Assembly (NCBI GenBank): GCA_033391075.1
Contig: JAWPMV010000001.1
Coordinates: forward strand, 5,890,001-5,954,000
Length of the DNA stretch: 64,000 bases
Origin: Bacteroidia bacterium
GTDB taxonomy: Bacteria; Bacteroidota; Bacteroidia; J057
Reading direction: 5' to 3'
Part shown: piece after piece, positions 51,591 to 60,439 of the stretch
How positions within the stretch are numbered: position 1 is the stretch's first letter
Layout of the letters: each line of letters opens with the position of its first letter
Notes under the pieces: generated by a model
Told to the model about the DNA's origin: nothing
Databases searched by the model: none
The model's input: the letters and a program-made list of their open reading frames with translations, nothing else
Translations under genes and position numbers: made by a program

Positions 51591-52106
51591 ATGTCTCGCC
51601 ATTCTTTCCATTCCCAAGCAAACTGCTTTCAGCAGAAATTCTCCCACATAACTTTTCTCTTGCTTTTTATCAGTTGCTCAGCATGTGAAACGGCTGTAGT
51701 ACCTGTCTCGGGCACTTATACGGGCCTCTCTGAAACAATTAGTTTCAGGTTTGAAGAAATTTTTGATGGAAATGGTAATATGGTCGGGATAATGGAAGTC
51801 CGGGATACCCTGATCAATCAGGCAGATGTATTGAGTTTAAATCAAGTAGGTAAGGAAAGTAAATTCAAACTGGAAGTAGGAACAGGTTTAGACAAATTAA
51901 AAACCTTCAGCAATCACGAATTTAGCTATGAAGGCCAATCAGAATTTAGTGTAGTCAGTCTGACTGATAGAGTTGAGACACGGCGCCTGGAATTCAGCAT
52001 AGACGGCAGTGGAAATATGGAACTCAGCTTTTCGGAAGACGAAAATCCTGATCCCAATGCAAGACCGGCAGGAACAAGAATTCTTTTCTCGGGCATAAAA
52101 AACTAG
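51591..52106 (+). CDS. Hypothetical lipoprotein
   Basis: A 171-residue protein with a long positively starting leader and lipobox-like FISCSAC (Cys 29 or 32). The mature part is rich in beta strands with D-G-N-G words (DGNGNMVGIM, SIDGSGNMEL), like small Bacteroidota lipocalin or barrel-plug lipoproteins, but no family is recognised. It ends at a strong terminator. Confidence 0.65.
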   Translation: MSRHSFHSQANCFQQKFSHITFLLLFISCSACETAVVPVSGTYTGLSETISFRFEEIFDGNGNMVGIMEVRDTLINQADVLSLNQVGKESKFKLEVGTGLDKLKTFSNHEFSYEGQSEFSVVSLTDRVETRRLEFSIDGSGNMELSFSEDENPDPNARPAGTRILFSGIKN

Positions 52107-52118
52107 AACTCTTTCCAT

Positions 52119-52151
52119 AAAAAAAGCTCCCCGAAGAGGGGAGCTTTTTTT
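52119..52151. terminator. Bidirectional Rho-independent terminator
   Basis: AAAAAAAGCTCCCC (52119-52132) pairs with GGGGAGCTTTTTTT (52138-52151) around GAAGA. It is shared by the lipoprotein (+) and the stator-like operon (-). Confidence 0.92.
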
Positions 52152-52165
52152 ATGAATGGATGCTC

Positions 52166-52924
52166 TTAGGCGGGTACATAGATCCTACTGATCAAATTGT
52201 CAATGATATAGGATTTGGTACGCGAATAAAAGGTATCGATATACTCGAGGTAGCGGTGGTATAGGAAATTGAGAATCAATCCTATCAACAAAGCTACCAG
52301 GGTGGTGTCAAAAGCAATGTTCAGGTTGCGGGTAATCTCTGGCATTCCTTCTTCTGTTTGGGCTAAATGCGCCATACCGATAGAAGAAGACAATCCAATC
52401 AGGGTTCCGATGAAGCCCAAAGAGATGATGGCTCCGAGCAAGTAACGAACGATCTCCAGTTTGGATTCCAATTCTTCTTTGCTGTTGTCAACCTGTGCAT
52501 TGAATACCTGCAGGGTATCAGGGATAGATTTATCGTTACGATACTGGGTACAGGCTTTCTTGATGAAATTGGTGATCATAAAACGCTTGCCGGATTTCTC
52601 CAACTCAATCACCTCCAATTTAATCTTACCTACTTCTTCTGGAGAAAGGACCAATTGATCTTTTTCAGGAAGGAGGTTTAGTTGAAAACCTTCAAATTCC
52701 GTTTTGATGGCTCTTTTTCTTTCAAATAGTTCAAATAGACTATAGAAAAAGAGGATGTAAATGGCGGCCTGGATATATCCTTTGCCAGAACCTCCTAATA
52801 CTTCAAAGAAACGGTGCAGGCCGGATACTCCTTCGAAAAGGTTTCCCATAAGGGTTAGAGCTGTCCAAAGCCCCAGAGCGGCCACTATACTAAATATTAG
52901 TTGAGTTATTTTCGTCTTAAACAT
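52166..52924 (-). CDS. MotA/TolQ/ExbB-like proton-channel protein
   Basis: Start at the ATG at 52922-52924 (252 residues) leaves a 13-bp gap to the partner gene; an earlier in-frame start would overlap it by 29 bp. Helices are at about 8-27, 50-67, 160-182 and 205-223. The last two form the MotA/TolQ/ExbB core: GFIGTLIGLSSSIG and FDTTLVALLIGLILNFLYH. These channels turn proton flow into mechanical work with a MotB/ExbD/TolR partner, here encoded just upstream. Confidence 0.85.
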   Translation of the reverse strand: MFKTKITQLIFSIVAALGLWTALTLMGNLFEGVSGLHRFFEVLGGSGKGYIQAAIYILFFYSLFELFERKRAIKTEFEGFQLNLLPEKDQLVLSPEEVGKIKLEVIELEKSGKRFMITNFIKKACTQYRNDKSIPDTLQVFNAQVDNSKEELESKLEIVRYLLGAIISLGFIGTLIGLSSSIGMAHLAQTEEGMPEITRNLNIAFDTTLVALLIGLILNFLYHRYLEYIDTFYSRTKSYIIDNLISRIYVPA

Positions 52925-52937
52925 ATCTTTTGAGATT

Positions 52938-53801
52938 TTATCTTTTGGTGAATTGATAGTTACCATCGGCTTGTAGCCTCACAGTTCCCAATAAGATTCT
53001 GTTCTTGCCGAGCGGTAATGTTTTGGTAAATATTTCTCCTCTTTGCTGGCGGGAGGCGTCCTTTGTGAAGATCAAACCTTTGATGATTACGGTCTTGTTA
53101 GTCTTTTTACTCTCTTTGAACTGAGCATAAAGCTTGTATTCACCTGGGATGATCTTATCAAATTGCCTTACGGATTCCTGGTTGGTTCGAAGGTCATTAC
53201 CGAATAAACGGTTTCTTGACTTTCCACTATCCCAGTTTCCAACGGCGCGATTTTTCTTTCTTCCTCCATATACACAGTCATTTCCTTTACATACAAAGAA
53301 GTCTACATTATCTGCCTGGTCTAACCAGCTGACTTCAAAGGAAACTTTACAGGGAACGGATGGTGCATCGCCGGTGAAGAGCGGAGAGTTCTTGGTACCA
53401 GAGGTCTCATTGATGGTCTCCTTAGGATCTTCTTTCGGCTTTTCGACTTCCTCTACCTTGACTTTTGGAATAGGAGGTGCGGGTTTTGGGTCTCGTACAG
53501 CTACCGGTACAGGTATGTCTGCCGGCTTTTCTACTTTTCTCTCTTCCACTTTAGGGAAGGCCTTATAATCTACCAGGACGGTAAAGAGGGTATCTCCCAC
53601 TCTTTTTGTCTTGAGACTATCGTCCAGTGTTCCAAATAATTTCATCTGCGTGGTATCCATATACATGACTACCTGGTTCACGTCAGGAGCCGAACTCCCG
53701 CCTTTTGGTGTGATGATGAAAAGGAAGATCACTGCACCCAGGGCACCTGTTACCAGGTCGAGAAAAGAGAGATTAAATACTTGATTTGTTCTTCTTGCCA
53801 T
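52938..53801 (-). CDS. MotB/ExbD-like single-helix protein with C-terminal beta domain
   Basis: A 287-residue protein. FNLSFLDLVTGALGAVIFLFI (9-29) is one membrane helix with Asp 15, the position of the proton-carrying Asp in MotB/ExbD/TolR. A Pro/Lys/Glu-rich linker (about 85-140) follows, then a compact periplasmic beta domain (about 150-285) containing Cys and VSWLDQADNVDFFVC, NWDSGKSRNRLFGND and PGEYKLYAQFKESKKTNK. The OmpA peptidoglycan-binding domain of MotB is absent. The C-terminal domain is not one I recognise; the Y-A-Q-F strand is reminiscent of DUF2135. Confidence 0.78.
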   Translation of the reverse strand: MARRTNQVFNLSFLDLVTGALGAVIFLFIITPKGGSSAPDVNQVVMYMDTTQMKLFGTLDDSLKTKRVGDTLFTVLVDYKAFPKVEERKVEKPADIPVPVAVRDPKPAPPIPKVKVEEVEKPKEDPKETINETSGTKNSPLFTGDAPSVPCKVSFEVSWLDQADNVDFFVCKGNDCVYGGRKKNRAVGNWDSGKSRNRLFGNDLRTNQESVRQFDKIIPGEYKLYAQFKESKKTNKTVIIKGLIFTKDASRQQRGEIFTKTLPLGKNRILLGTVRLQADGNYQFTKR

Positions 53802-53858
53802 GGATCATTGGTTTATTCTGTGTGTAGAACATTCTTCATTTACAAGCTTGCCTTTCGG

Positions 53859-54170
53859 CTATCCTGTCTTTTGGTTACTAATCTCCCAGGGTTGAAAAGA
53901 ACCATAGTTGCCTTGTGTTCTTTTGGGTGCCTGAGGTGCTTTGGGTTTGGGCTTTGATTGTGGCAGGGGAAAGTGGCAATGAACGCATTTGTCATCTTTG
54001 CCGGGAGCCTCGCTCCCGCAGTTTTTACACTGCGTGAGGCTCTTTTCCACTACTATAAAATCAGTTATATCTTGTTGACCGAAGGGAACTAATTTGCCCT
54101 CCATGTTGCACTGTACACACTTGACAGCGCCGTCAACATTTTCACTATTGCAATTCTTACAGATTAACAT
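53859..54170 (-). CDS. Double zinc-ribbon protein
   Basis: A 103-residue soluble protein with two zinc ribbons: Cys 4, 7, 18, 21 and Cys 48, 51, 62, 65 (CxxC pairs). The C-terminal third is Pro/Lys rich and disordered. It lies between the barrel gene (8-bp gap) and the MotB-like gene in one transcript, so it may be a cytosolic adaptor for the complex, although its placement there is inference. Confidence 0.85.
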   Translation of the reverse strand: MLICKNCNSENVDGAVKCVQCNMEGKLVPFGQQDITDFIVVEKSLTQCKNCGSEAPGKDDKCVHCHFPLPQSKPKPKAPQAPKRTQGNYGSFQPWEISNQKTG

Positions 54171-54178
54171 GGTTTTTA

Positions 54179-54922
54179 TTAATATTTATCAGAAAAGTTG
54201 AGGTGGTACTCATATCCTATAGTCAGGACAGTTGAGCGGTTGAATTGACTTCCTTTATAGTCGTCAAAGAAAGTATTGGCTTGCTTATATCTTTGGTTGA
54301 AAGCATCTCTGAAGTCATTGTCCCAGGTAAAGTTGAAAGTAATGGTACTTCTGTTGTTCAACTTGAAATACATACCGGGAGAAAACTGAAAGCTTACCTG
54401 CGTACTTTTGTAATCGTCATTTACACCGGTTCCAAAATCAACAGAATATTGTTCGTTGGTAACTTCTTCCGATGCATAATATTCAATGTTCTCATCGATC
54501 TTTCCACTGAATCCCATATTGAATGAAGGACCCATATCGAGGGAGAATCCAAAATTGTCAGAAAGCGGAGCGCGATATCCTACCAGTACCGGGATAGCTA
54601 CATAATGCAGTCTTTCTTTTGCTGAGAGGAAACCTACGCCATTTTGATCACTGAAATTATCTGTTGCATAATTACCGCCTTTTTGCATGTAATTCACTCC
54701 ACTGGTAATTGTCCAATTGGAAAGTTGCAAACCGAATTCTACACCACCGTTCAAGCCGCTTAAGGAACTTGAAGTTGTGTACAACTCTGCAAGGTCAATC
54801 GTATGCTTGAACTTGGAAAAGTTTGCTCCTCCATTTGCGCCGATAAAAAATGAGCTCTGTGCTACCAAAGCGTTGAGAGGAAAAAATAATGCTATAACAA
54901 GTAATTTTGTAAGCGATTTCAT
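54179..54922 (-). CDS. Outer-membrane beta-barrel protein (OMP_b-brl type)
   Basis: A 247-residue protein with a signal peptide (LNALVAQ) and a GANGGANFSKF start, the usual opening of Bacteroidota PorT-like barrels, then alternating strands (ISGVNYMQKGG..., GPSFNMGFSG, STITFNFTWDNDFRDAF) to a Tyr-rich end. It is the first gene of the stator-like operon, which would give that complex an outer-membrane partner. Confidence 0.85.
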   Translation of the reverse strand: MKSLTKLLVIALFFPLNALVAQSSFFIGANGGANFSKFKHTIDLAELYTTSSSLSGLNGGVEFGLQLSNWTITSGVNYMQKGGNYATDNFSDQNGVGFLSAKERLHYVAIPVLVGYRAPLSDNFGFSLDMGPSFNMGFSGKIDENIEYYASEEVTNEQYSVDFGTGVNDDYKSTQVSFQFSPGMYFKLNNRSTITFNFTWDNDFRDAFNQRYKQANTFFDDYKGSQFNRSTVLTIGYEYHLNFSDKY

Positions 54923-56101: not shown

Positions 56102-56205
56102 TGTCATTGCGAGCTCAAATTTTGAGCGCAGCAATCCCCTTGACTAAGATAAACTATCGGGAATCAAGGGGATTGCTTCGCCTTTCATAAAGGCTTGCAA
56201 TGACA
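56102..56205. repeat. TGTCAT palindromic element, copy 3 (cloverleaf shape)
   Basis: TGTCATTGC (56102-56110) pairs with GCAATGACA (56197-56205). Inside are three hairpins: GCTCAAATTTTGAGC, GCAATCCCCTTGA with TCAAGGGGATTGC, and GCCTTTCATAAAGGC. It lies upstream of the cyclase cassette; an in-frame ATG within its right arm should not be taken as the gene start. Confidence 0.9.
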
Positions 56206-56316
56206 GCAGAGCTGAAATATATTCTGTTTTCCTTCTTCCTCCCCTTCAAACCTCACCTTCTACTTAAAGAAAAGATAAAAAAATTCGTAGATTCGAAAGA
56301 CCTAAATACCCCCATA

Positions 56317-58023
56317 ATGCTTGAAACCAGAAAACTAGCCATCATAGTATTTGCAGATATTGCAGGGTATTCGGCTTTGATGCAAGCTGATGAGAAGCAG
56401 GCACTCCATGTTTTGGACCAGTTTAAGTCCATCCTGGAGGAAGAGATGAATATGCATGATGGCGAGATTGTACAGTATTATGGAGATGGTTGCTTGCTCT
56501 CTTTTGAAAGTGCTTTCCATAGTGTCAGCGCTGCAACCTCTCTACAAAGAGCCTTTATTTATGCCAAAGTCCCTGTCCGGATCGGTATGCACCTTGGCGA
56601 TGTATTGTATAAAAACAACAATGCCTTTGGAGATGGTGTAAATATCGCTTCACGGGTCGAATCCCTGGGCGTGCCAGGCTCTATCTTATTATCCAAAACG
56701 GTTGCCAATCAGATCCGCAACAAATCAGATTTCTCCCTGCAAAACCTGGGACCCTTCCATTTCAAAAATATTGATGAACCCATGGAAGTGTTTGCCGTAT
56801 CAAATCCGGGTTTTGTGATTCCACGTCCGGACCAGATGGAAGGGAAATTGCAAAAACCCAAGCCCAAGCAGGAAGAAGTTGCGAACCAATCCGAATGGGA
56901 GCGCTACCAGATGCTAGAGATCATGGATGCCCTTGAGGATGAGAAATGTGTCTTGATTTTGGGAAATTATGCTTTTTCCCGACCGGCAGATAGCTCCGGC
57001 ATGAATGACTCTGAATTTTCTATTCCGGAGCTGATCATGCGAGAGCAGCAAAAATGGGCCACAGCCAATTCTGCTGAATCTTTGGCAGATTTTTATACAG
57101 CAGCTCAGAGTCTGATAGGAAGGGCAGGAGGGCAACGCATGTTTATGGAGCTTTCAGATATCAAACTGAAAGACCTGGGAAGCAAGCAGCAGGATCGATT
57201 CAAAAAGATCAGTGAGATTCCATTTGATCTCATCGTCTCAACCTATCCCTTCAACCTCTTGCAAGAGGTTTTCAATAAAAATAAGATTGCCCATAACTTT
57301 GAATATTATAGTTTCCTCGAAGACAGTGGAGCCCTGGAGCCTTTTTCTTCCGAAAAACCCCTGATATATAATCTTTTCGGTAGTGTAAAGCATAAGGACT
57401 CTATGGTAATCTCCCTGGATCGCCTGTACCAATTCATTTTTGGTATTCTGGGAGTGAGGCAGTTGCCAAAGAAAATACAGGACAAAGTAAAACAGGCCAG
57501 CCACCTTGTATTTCTGGGTTTCTCCTTTGATGCCTGGTATATGAAACTGCTGCTCCGTGTCCTGAAGGTACATGAGAAAGAGATTTCCTATGCTCATCCT
57601 CCCGGACCCGCAGGCCTGCGTCAGCAAAACAGAATGTTCTTTGAGTCCAATTTCAAAGTAACCTTCCTCAATAAGAAAGTAGATGATTTTGTCAGCGAAC
57701 TCCATGATCATTGCGATCGTTCGGATATGCTGCGGAAGGCAAGTGCAGAGGAAATTCCCACTCCCTATGAGCAATTGCAGGAATTGACTGCACGATATAG
57801 GCTGGAGGAAGTAATGGAAAGTCTGGATGAAATCATCATCAAAAATGGAAAAGCGGGTAGCCTTCTGAGAAAATTGGGAGATTATCAGAGGCGCTTTCAC
57901 AAAATTAAAGAATGGGAGAATTATGAAACCTATGGGGATGAGGAGTTGGAACCGATGTGGGAAAAGCTTAAAACAGATGTTTCCCTTTTTATTGACCTCG
58001 TATCCGAAATGATCCCATCCTAA
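56317..58023 (+). CDS. Class III nucleotide cyclase - SIR2-like - effector-associated domain protein
   Basis: Start at the ATG at 56317 (568 residues): MLETRKLAIIVFADIAGYS is the usual cyclase start, and the extra 39 codons upstream run into a palindromic repeat. Cyclase domain (5-165): Asp 14 and Asp 57 (YYGDGCLLSF) bind metal, and VNIASR (Asn 109, Arg 113) is the transition-state pair. The substrate-selecting Lys and Asp positions appear to be Gln 53 and Asn 102. SIR2-like domain (about 205-465): CVLILGNYAF, FDLIVSTYPF, YNLFGSV and LVFLGFSFDAWYMKLLLR. The last 85 residues (LQELTARYRLEEVMESL...) resemble an effector-associated helical domain (EAD11-like). It abuts the STAND gene by 2 bp. Confidence 0.85.
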   Translation: MLETRKLAIIVFADIAGYSALMQADEKQALHVLDQFKSILEEEMNMHDGEIVQYYGDGCLLSFESAFHSVSAATSLQRAFIYAKVPVRIGMHLGDVLYKNNNAFGDGVNIASRVESLGVPGSILLSKTVANQIRNKSDFSLQNLGPFHFKNIDEPMEVFAVSNPGFVIPRPDQMEGKLQKPKPKQEEVANQSEWERYQMLEIMDALEDEKCVLILGNYAFSRPADSSGMNDSEFSIPELIMREQQKWATANSAESLADFYTAAQSLIGRAGGQRMFMELSDIKLKDLGSKQQDRFKKISEIPFDLIVSTYPFNLLQEVFNKNKIAHNFEYYSFLEDSGALEPFSSEKPLIYNLFGSVKHKDSMVISLDRLYQFIFGILGVRQLPKKIQDKVKQASHLVFLGFSFDAWYMKLLLRVLKVHEKEISYAHPPGPAGLRQQNRMFFESNFKVTFLNKKVDDFVSELHDHCDRSDMLRKASAEEIPTPYEQLQELTARYRLEEVMESLDEIIIKNGKAGSLLRKLGDYQRRFHKIKEWENYETYGDEELEPMWEKLKTDVSLFIDLVSEMIPS

Positions 58024-58025
58024 GC

Positions 58026-59042
58026 ATGCAAAACATGAGTACCCTTAGATCAAGATATCCGGGCTTAAGGCCCTTTGATGCAGAAGAGAAAAGCTATTTC
58101 TTCGGAAGGGACGAAGAGATAGAAGCGGTATGCCGACTATTGGATCTCGATAGTCTGACGATTCTTCATGGTCCCTCCGGCATGGGAAAATCCTCCCTCA
58201 TCAATGCAGGCATACTTCCCGCTTTGAGTAAAGTCAGGAATTGGGATGTTCCTTATCATATCGTACAGGTTCGTTTTACCAATTACGATCCCATTTTAGC
58301 CCGAATCCGAAGAGAGAGACAAGGTAGAAAAGAAGAAGAAACCGAAATCGTCAAAGATCCTATTGATAGATTTATCAGCGCCTGTCTGGGAAATGAACAT
58401 GAATGGAAAGACATCATTCCCATGCCCAAAGCCAGTCTATGGTTGAGTGCCAAAAAGATGTTGGTGGACCAGGGCATTCATCCTTTACGGCTGATCTTTA
58501 TTCTCGATCAATTTGAAGAACTATTTACCTATCCAGAAGAAAGGGTTGAGGAATTTGGTCGGCAGTTAGGAGAACTCTATCACCAAATCATGCCCGAAAG
58601 TGTGAGAAAAGGATTGGAAAGAAAGATGATCATTGAGTCAGATGCGGAGGGAGAAAAAGCTCCCCTGCCTGGACCGAAAGTAGCGCAATATCTGGGAAGA
58701 ATAGAAGAATCCCTGGATTGTAAAATTCTGATCTCCATGCGCTCTGATAAACTTCATTTTCTGGAACGCTTCAAAGCTTATTTACCAGAAATGATGCTCA
58801 ATAGCTATGAGCTAAGAAGTTTCGACCAGAAACAGGCAAAAAAAGCCATAGCTGAACCCGCTTCTTTACAAGGAGAAAACTTCATTTCCCCCAAATTCAA
58901 TATCAGAGAGGAAGTACTCGATGAACTGATTGGATTTTTGGAAGACAAAATCACCAGAAGAATAGATCCCTCACAGCTCCAGATCGTTTGCCAGCATATT
59001 GAGAAACGAATGGTAGAGCGGGGAGAAAAACAAAATAAATAG
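58026..59042 (+). CDS. STAND-type NTPase core (nSTAND1-like)
   Basis: A 338-residue soluble NTPase. YPGLRPFDAEEKSYFFGRDEEI (11-32) is the nSTAND1 lead-in, Walker A is GPSGMGKSS (49-57), Walker B is LIFILDQFEELF (156-167), and ISMRSDKLHFLERFKAYLPE (about 240) is the sensor region. Proteins of this family usually continue into a winged-helix arm and a repeat sensor; here translation stops after LQIVCQHIEKRM and that arm is encoded by the next gene. It starts 2 bp after the cyclase-SIR2 stop. Role: an NTP-driven switch that should control the cyclase/SIR2 protein or be controlled by the LysM protein. Confidence 0.9.
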   Translation: MQNMSTLRSRYPGLRPFDAEEKSYFFGRDEEIEAVCRLLDLDSLTILHGPSGMGKSSLINAGILPALSKVRNWDVPYHIVQVRFTNYDPILARIRRERQGRKEEETEIVKDPIDRFISACLGNEHEWKDIIPMPKASLWLSAKKMLVDQGIHPLRLIFILDQFEELFTYPEERVEEFGRQLGELYHQIMPESVRKGLERKMIIESDAEGEKAPLPGPKVAQYLGRIEESLDCKILISMRSDKLHFLERFKAYLPEMMLNSYELRSFDQKQAKKAIAEPASLQGENFISPKFNIREEVLDELIGFLEDKITRRIDPSQLQIVCQHIEKRMVERGEKQNK

Positions 59043-59049
59043 CAGTATT

Positions 59050-59055
59050 AAGGAG
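59050..59055 (+). promoter_or_regulatory. Strong Shine-Dalgarno (AAGGAG) deciding the start of the LysM gene
   Basis: AAGGAG lies 7 bases before the ATG at 59063 and 8 bases after the previous stop. Strong SD sites are uncommon in Bacteroidota, so it supports a real separate gene rather than a sequencing frameshift. Confidence 0.7.
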
Positions 59056-59062
59056 AAAGGCA

Positions 59063-60439
59063 ATGGCTGAGATTTTACAGGAACATATTGAGATGAATGG
59101 GCAAAACGCTGCTCCTCTTGAACTGAGAATAGAGGATGTGGGGAATCTTGATAGCGTTTTGCGGGGATATTATTTGAGTCAGATCAAAAAGTTGGAGAAG
59201 AGAGGCGACCGCAAACTGGCTCGCAAACTCATCGAAAATCACCTCGTACTCCCCAAATCACGACAAAGAACCTCCAAGGATGCCGCCTTTATTCGTGAAA
59301 AACTGGGAATAGAACCCTTACTTCTGGAAAAACTGGAAAATTCTCGACTCATCAGGAGAATCAGCAAAAGAGGAAATAACCCTATATATGAAATCAGTCA
59401 TGATACCCTGGTAGAACCTATCCTCGCAGGCAAAAGAGAAAGAGAAGCAATTGCGCTATTCTTGGGACGTATCTGGAAATGGGTACTGGGTTTTCTTATT
59501 CTTTGGTTTCTCTTTGGGATGATCGTAGAAAGTTGTTTTCAGGTAATCCCTCATCCCCTGGATGAACCCAAAAAAGTCAATATTGATCTTGGGAAAAAGA
59601 TGTTTAGCCCCAATGAAGGGAATACTTCTTTTACCATTCCTATCGGCCCTTTATTATCTGAGAACGAAATCGATACCAATGACTCCCTCTATTTTACCCT
59701 GAGACTGGACGCAATTGATAGGGAAGTCCTTGCAAAAAGCCGAGGCGGAACGGGAAATGATACTGTGCCTATATATTTGTCAAAGCCCATAGAAGTACCG
59801 ATATCGGCAGAAAATCCTGAGGAATATCATAGTTTCCCCAATTTGGTTGTCCCCCTAACAGTACTGGCAGGTGAAGATGGAACGGAGCCCAGACAAATTT
59901 ATGGGCAGCTCATTGGTAGTGTAAAGCTGAATTTTGAGGAAATCGGAGGTACACGGGGTATGGAAAATAAAAGACTCTCAAAATCTGAAATAAATATGCG
60001 ACTGGATACCACAGTCAAAGCTGAGACCGCTGAAAAAATGGTTCCACTCAAAAAGGATTTAATGCTATCTGACCTTTTCGAAAGTGAAGATGATAAAAAT
60101 AAGATCAGAAATACCCTGGGTGATCGTCCACTGAAACTGAACTACAACTTACAGCTTCAACCAGCTGATTATACTCCCCCTCCCCCCAAAACGAAATATG
60201 TATCCGTTCAGGGAATCGAGGTACAATATTCAGACGGTACGCGCAGATTTATTTCTCCCGGAGAAGACGGAAGCGGTGCAAGGGGAGCTGTCATTGGCAC
60301 CCATACGGTCGCAAATGGAGAAACCTTGTTCGGTATTGCCAAAAGGTATAACACGACTGCAGATGAGATCAAACGCCTCAATAATCTGAGAGGTAATAGT
60401 ATTTCGGTTGGGCAGGAATTGAAGATTCCCCTAAGGTAA
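59063..60439 (+). CDS. STAND-arm winged-helix membrane protein with LysM domain
   Basis: A 458-residue protein. Residues 20-125 match the winged-helix arm that follows the NTPase in nSTAND1 proteins (LRGYYLSQI ... LIRRI ... YEISHDTLVEPIL). One membrane helix spans about 138-157 (WVLGFLILWFLFGMIV). A periplasmic part of about 250 residues follows (beta-rich, unknown), and the C-terminus (414-457, HTVANGETLFGIAKRYNTTA ... VGQELKIPL) is a LysM peptidoglycan-binding domain. The protein thus links the cytosolic NTPase partner to the cell wall. It overlaps the convergent next gene by 9 bp. Confidence 0.88.
   Translation: MAEILQEHIEMNGQNAAPLELRIEDVGNLDSVLRGYYLSQIKKLEKRGDRKLARKLIENHLVLPKSRQRTSKDAAFIREKLGIEPLLLEKLENSRLIRRISKRGNNPIYEISHDTLVEPILAGKREREAIALFLGRIWKWVLGFLILWFLFGMIVESCFQVIPHPLDEPKKVNIDLGKKMFSPNEGNTSFTIPIGPLLSENEIDTNDSLYFTLRLDAIDREVLAKSRGGTGNDTVPIYLSKPIEVPISAENPEEYHSFPNLVVPLTVLAGEDGTEPRQIYGQLIGSVKLNFEEIGGTRGMENKRLSKSEINMRLDTTVKAETAEKMVPLKKDLMLSDLFESEDDKNKIRNTLGDRPLKLNYNLQLQPADYTPPPPKTKYVSVQGIEVQYSDGTRRFISPGEDGSGARGAVIGTHTVANGETLFGIAKRYNTTADEIKRLNNLRGNSISVGQELKIPLR

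Follow-up and report, generated by a model that had tools for sequence, protein, structure and literature searches.

A conserved operon of marine Saprospiraceae-type bacteria combines a stator-type gene pair with an outer-membrane barrel and a zinc ribbon, and probably encodes an envelope force transducer

What might a stator-like gene pair drive when it is encoded in one row with an outer-membrane beta-barrel and a zinc ribbon protein? The best-known members of this motor family power flagella, gliding, Ton/Tol or phage defence. The locus considered here lies in the 9.5 Mb genome of a Bacteroidia bacterium, and we call the whole 64,000-nucleotide stretch that was analysed the window. A preliminary description had proposed an operon of four genes, and its coordinates, order and gaps were all reproduced from the list of ORFs: four minus-strand ORFs run from the barrel through the zinc ribbon and the MotB/ExbD-like gene to the MotA/ExbB-like gene, separated by 8, 57 and 13 bp.

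54179..54922, minus strand: outer-membrane beta-barrel protein of 247 aa, the first gene, with a signal sequence (PF13568, OMP_b-brl_2)
53859..54170, minus strand: double zinc ribbon protein of 103 aa, without a signal sequence (PF13240/PF12773 (DZR), E 4e-5 to 8e-5)
52938..53801, minus strand: MotB/ExbD-like axle protein of 287 aa (32 homologues aligned)
53709..53771, minus strand: transmembrane helix LSFLDLVTGALGAVIFLFIIT of the MotB-like protein, about residues 11-31, with Asp15 (from hydropathy)
53376..53570, minus strand: Pro/Lys/Glu-rich linker of the MotB-like protein, about residues 78-142 (from composition)
52941..53375, minus strand: predicted C-terminal beta-sandwich of the MotB-like protein, residues 143-287, classed as a diverged DUF2135 (AlphaFold2 and hhalign)
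52166..52924, minus strand: MotA/ExbB/TolQ-like channel protein of 252 aa with four transmembrane helices (PF01618 above cut-off)
52114..52156, minus strand: intrinsic terminator hairpin (folded stretch -34.5 kcal/mol, z -7.8)

The last gap measures 13 bp because we place the MotA-like start at 52924; the frame is also open from 52966, and the internal Met at 52924, which corresponds to the start of the nearest relative, is the more likely initiation site. The hairpin is near-perfect (19 pairs) and is common to the operon and to a convergent plus-strand gene ending at 52106; a simple terminator scan gave no match there, and it was RNA folding that revealed it. The shared terminator of the preliminary description is thus upheld by folding, whereas its single transcript is something that we infer from the layout. 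The neighbours in the window encode an SBF transporter, a small ORF without a family, an LpxR-like protein and a fatty-acid hydroxylase-like protein, and it is indeed the case, as had been said, that none of them is a motility, Tol, gliding or Zorya gene. Further along, on the plus strand at 56200-60439, a guanylate/adenylate cyclase-SIR2_2 fusion, an nSTAND1 NTPase and a LysM protein stand in tandem and resemble a conflict system; this row is absent from the other four-gene loci described below.

Assignment of the two core proteins to a stator-type complex, likewise proposed earlier, held up well. The MotA-like protein scores 34 bits against PF01618 MotA_ExbB (cut-off 22.9) and has four hydrophobic segments by hydropathy, and the polar Thr residues of its last two helices are strongly conserved in the homologue alignment (T174, 97%; T207, 94%). 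When it is aligned with PomA and TolQ, its TM3 motif Gly-x-x-Gly-Thr and its TM4 Thr find counterparts there, in PDB matches that are themselves weak (E 0.04-0.3). The MotB-like protein has one transmembrane helix, and its Asp15, the residue that the preliminary description had singled out, is invariant in 32/32 homologues. The nearest relatives outside the four-gene clade have the same N-terminal helix motif, and vWA-tipped relatives carry a transmembrane Asp at the same place; some vWA proteins of Gammaproteobacteria may share this helix. Kinship of the operon to the MotA/TolQ/ExbB motor superfamily is much more certain than the full statement about its function to which we come below.

The MotB-like protein gave zero family matches in Pfam, NCBIfam and PADLOC, no match to ExbD/TolR (PF02472) at E values up to 1, and none in Pfam to the OmpA-like peptidoglycan-binding domain, MotB_plug or the TonB C-terminal domain. 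It is encoded by a single-copy gene in the window genome, which also holds two further PF01618 genes, each adjoining a gene that we judged from its sequence to be ExbD/TolR-like. Helix and tip are, as a rule, joined by a linker of 65-106 aa (mean 79; P 19.5%, K 18.8%, E 11.9%; n=27 sequences) that resembles the proline-rich TonB arms described in PMC12204202.

The C-terminal region had been called a novel beta domain rather than OmpA, and fold prediction bears out the beta and non-OmpA parts of that statement, though not its novelty. AlphaFold2 modelled residues 143-287 as a confident ten-strand, all-beta domain with neither a TonB nor an ExbD fold (pLDDT 90.8, pTM 0.86, from a 47-sequence alignment; a model from only four sequences reached pLDDT 48.5). 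Profile comparison by hhalign matched it to DUF2135 (PF09906) over ~120 residues with a probability of 98.3% (E 1.5e-14), against 0.3% or less for six column-shuffled control profiles, and we therefore class the tip, on model and profile together, as a diverged DUF2135-type beta-sandwich, neither OmpA nor ExbD. The window tip does not reach the Pfam gathering score for DUF2135 and gave no match; 2/47 relatives gave one (best E 0.003); the Bacteroidota DUF2135 matches used in the comparison sit in open frames of ~1000 codons. Two cysteines of the tip, Cys 171 and Cys 176 in the motif VCKGNDC, are 97% conserved and may form a disulfide. Foldseek returned no PDB entry with E < 1e-3 for the tip model. 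In the VIA structure ranking a radial-spoke chain (Z 8.8) and four TerD-family entries (Z 8.2, 6.9, 6.8 and 6.8) stood near the top, Z values below or near 8 being common; with TerD the tip shows a resemblance of fold and no kinship of sequence (hhalign 0.3%), and kinship to vWA was rejected (hhalign to the vWA relatives only 0.1-0.3%).

The barrel protein scores 47 bits against PF13568 (cut-off 27) and begins with a hydrophobic segment by hydropathy; PF13568 barrels are very common in Bacteroidota. The zinc ribbon protein, which we predict to be cytosolic, falls slightly under the curated cut-off of PF13240/PF12773, and its eight cysteines (Cys 4, 7, 18, 21 and Cys 48, 51, 62, 65) are all invariant in 31/31 sequences. 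Many ribbons of the clade finish with a short basic [RK]-x-[GS] tail (QKTG in the window, 53859-53890), which could serve for docking.

Are these four genes a unit, or does the window hold a chance arrangement? Comparison of the MotA-like alignment with 84,980 species genomes yielded 371 relatives; we retained the 80 best, a sample biased to near relatives. Among these 80, barrel, MotB and MotA stand in this order at 31 loci, nearly all from Saprospiria, with gaps that are mostly short. The zinc ribbon lies between barrel and MotB in 30/31 (L072 is without it); the barrel is present in 31/31, a count that follows from the selection of loci, which itself demanded barrel, MotB and MotA. A search of conserved neighbourhoods, as the preliminary description had suggested, thus finds homologues that are not scattered. 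The MotA-like proteins of the 31 loci form one clade (support 100/100). It has two further members, L074 and L078, whose contigs start inside or at the MotB-like gene. We regard the unit as exactly four genes because the flanks differ and the next most frequent gene cluster reaches only 8 loci; no common fifth gene was found around the 31 loci, and the genes beside the operon in the window are not conserved at the others. The divergence of the barrel tracks that of MotA and MotB (Mantel r 0.90 and 0.89), as co-inheritance alone would also bring about. Synonymous sites were saturated among the homologues, so dN was obtained and dN/dS was not. Distribution is sporadic, with the MotB-like gene present in 2/13 genomes of the window genome's family; the second of these (L005/L036) has the same four genes between other flanks, and the MAG DT_111 carries two operon copies (L061, L068) diverged in all four genes. 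Taken from sequence, the four-gene set is a conserved operon of marine Saprospiraceae-type bacteria and no accident.

The preliminary description had not considered a wider group to which this operon is related. Frequent among sister loci (Bacteroidales, Chitinophagales and others) is the order zinc-ribbon-FHA, kinase-FHA, MotB-like, MotA-like, FHA-trypsin, PP2C and kinase(s); among 30 sister loci, with gene labels assigned by similarity to L046/L047 genes, we counted ZnR-FHA-type genes in 21, Ser/Thr kinase-type genes in 26, PP2C in 21 and the FHA-trypsin protease in 19. An outer-membrane barrel lies upstream of the ribbon gene in five of them (L083, L087, L089, L091 and L099; PF13568 established for four), and L091, which falls outside the main clade, has barrel, ribbon, MotB and MotA alone on a short contig. 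Sister MotB tips are mostly DUF2135-like, with vWA in L037, L038, L084 and all Bdellovibrionota-type operons, which consist of two genes. L078 is kinase-linked, sits within the four-gene clade and has a long branch; in it (L078:2-1790), two tandem DUF2135-like genes lie upstream of the MotA-like gene, the second opening with a signal-peptide-like segment and not with a stator helix. The more distant L047, L048 and L049 encode a MotA-like protein, FHA, PP2C, an FHA-containing protein and a vWA-tipped MotB-like protein, and Ser/Thr kinases adjoin the L047 and L048 operons. On a Rhizobium leguminosarum plasmid (L157:2740-5533) PP2C, MotA-like and MotB-like genes stand in tandem, with a MotB C-terminus that looks DUF2135-like by eye; given these genes, the family extends to Alphaproteobacteria. 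A MotA/TolQ/ExbB gene on the Anabaena cylindrica plasmid pANACY.03 (L156, 5839-7239) follows type III-B CRISPR genes and precedes a viperin gene.

Since the sister ribbon carries FHA beside Ser/Thr kinases and PP2C, phosphorylation probably acts as a switch in the wider family, and the four-gene operon apparently belongs to this phosphorylation-linked branch of bacterial motors. The account that we prefer is that ribbon, barrel and stator came together early in this branch and that the four-gene form arose by loss of the kinase module, the direction of change being read from a midpoint-rooted tree. An FHA-protease of the sister type was not found in the window genome, and phospho-regulation is therefore not simply transferable to the operon studied here.

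We propose that the four products build a dedicated trans-envelope motor, that is, an envelope force transducer of MotA/TolQ/ExbB type acting on the outer envelope, and we put the probability of this reading at about 0.58. In 5:2 motors, Zorya included, the A pentamer presents a ring of Ser/Thr residues to the Asp of the B subunit (PMC11890865, PMC9389320, PMC12204202). By analogy, a MotA-like pentamer would surround a MotB-like dimer in the inner membrane, and a flow of ions (protons or Na+) past Asp15 would turn or pull the axle. The putatively stiff Pro/Lys/Glu-rich arm, which would be long enough to span the periplasm, carries the DUF2135-type tip in place of an OmpA domain, and the tip would exert a mechanical action on the outer membrane layer, where it would most likely dock on the co-encoded barrel. 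The double zinc ribbon could be an adaptor on the cytosolic side, gating the stator or anchoring it. We favour a force transducer because the operon fits the plan set out in PMC12204202 with another tip, and with a barrel and a cytosolic ribbon in addition. Much of this had been anticipated in the preliminary description, whose trans-envelope motor draws strength from a stator-type complex in a conserved operon with an outer-membrane barrel and a predicted cytosolic ribbon; what has to be amended is its novel tip, and the motor is to be seen beside the sister operons with their kinases, PP2C and FHA and in an architecture related to the vWA-tipped transducers of PMC12204202.

The main rival holds that the machine is chiefly a sensor, in which tip and barrel detect a ligand or damage to the envelope, tension in the arm opens the channel and the stator signals to the ribbon, and from there, in the sister operons, on to kinases and phosphatase; we consider this rather unlikely. 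The abundance of signalling enzymes in the sister operons and the sporadic distribution within the family speak for it, as does Zorya, which employs its stator as a sensor, as proposed for ZorAB (PMC11890865). The four-gene clade itself, however, is without a dedicated kinase or effector, and the neighbours of the 31 loci show no enrichment for defence. A Ton-like energiser, which would open the barrel or a nutrient transporter with the DUF2135 tip in TonB's role, could account for the TonB-like linker and for an outer-membrane barrel in every four-gene operon, yet the barrel is of the small PF13568 type (~247 aa) and no TonB-dependent transporter, ordinary ExbBD/TolQR-type pairs are present elsewhere in the genome, and the neighbourhoods have no transport or catabolic genes in common, so we hold this to be quite improbable. 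Least probable is a machine made of the MotA-like and MotB-like proteins alone with barrel and ribbon as operon passengers, as the two-gene operons of Bdellovibrionota relatives and the ribbon-less L072 might suggest, for the four genes stay together in 30/31 loci despite varying flanks, barrel and ribbon are likewise found ahead of the stator genes in the kinase-linked sister clade, where L091 consists of just these four genes.

If the force-transducer reading is right, then a channel, an axle with a built-in arm, a cytosolic adaptor and an outer-membrane barrel in one operon would make up a compact system for converting ion flow into outer-membrane work, and the sister operons would connect Ser/Thr phosphorylation to such a motor. 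A bolder version, which we advance tentatively and regard as doubtful, is that phosphorylation-controlled trans-envelope rotary motors occur across Bacteroidota and have a relative in the PP2C-MotA-MotB (DUF2135-like) operon of a Rhizobium plasmid; that kinase-FHA, PP2C and zinc-ribbon-FHA act as their clutch; and that the four-gene form of Saprospiria is stripped down, unregulated or otherwise regulated, and drives the barrel through its DUF2135 arm. The motor superfamily and the cousin vWA architecture are already published (PMC12204202). We came across no account of a DUF2135 tip, of barrel and ribbon as fixed partners or of sister operons with kinases, PP2C and FHA in the open-access literature, where our search for stators with FHA, PP2C or a zinc ribbon did not find the kinase-linked type described.

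How, then, does this operon compare with known systems? With flagellar MotAB/PomAB it shares an A subunit of four transmembrane helices and a B-subunit helix with an Asp; in contrast to them, its MotB-like protein has no OmpA-like peptidoglycan-binding domain or MotB_plug, and no flagellar genes are adjacent. ExbBD-TonB and TolQR-TolA likewise use a MotA/TolQ/ExbB channel and an arm rich in Pro that points to the outer membrane, whereas here axle and arm are a single protein without matches to ExbD/TolR or the TonB C-terminal domain, and a small barrel stands where Ton has a TonB-dependent receptor. Zorya ZorAB (PMC11890865) has in common with it a MotA/MotB-type core, the conserved membrane Asp and accessory genes within one operon; unlike Zorya, the window operon has a MotA-like protein of 252 aa without the long cytosolic ZorA tail (ZorA matches are weak only, E 1.6e-5), a MotB-like protein without an OmpA-type PG domain, and no ZorC/D/E. 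A Zorya or defence-island setting was also rejected from the neighbours of the 31 loci, among which PADLOC yielded only 'mad2' (2/91 proteins, probably two ECF sigma factors). The C-terminal domain aligns by profile with DUF2135 (PF09906), and differs from it in lying under Pfam detection. Akin to it in plan are the TPH-vWA force transducers (PMC12204202; Mol Biol Evol 2025, Fig. 4c-d), in which vWA proteins with a trans-pore helix are encoded beside tolQ-like genes and are proposed to pull the outer membrane; the main text of that paper makes no mention of zinc, kinases or any DUF. Both systems pair a TolQ-like gene with an Asp-bearing trans-pore helix fused to a large periplasmic domain, and in both an ExbD/TolR/MotB gene is absent. 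In the window operon, however, the tip is of DUF2135 type and not vWA, the arm is rich in Pro, Lys and Glu, one axle gene takes the place of a heterologous pair, and the zinc ribbon and the outer-membrane barrel are fixed parts.
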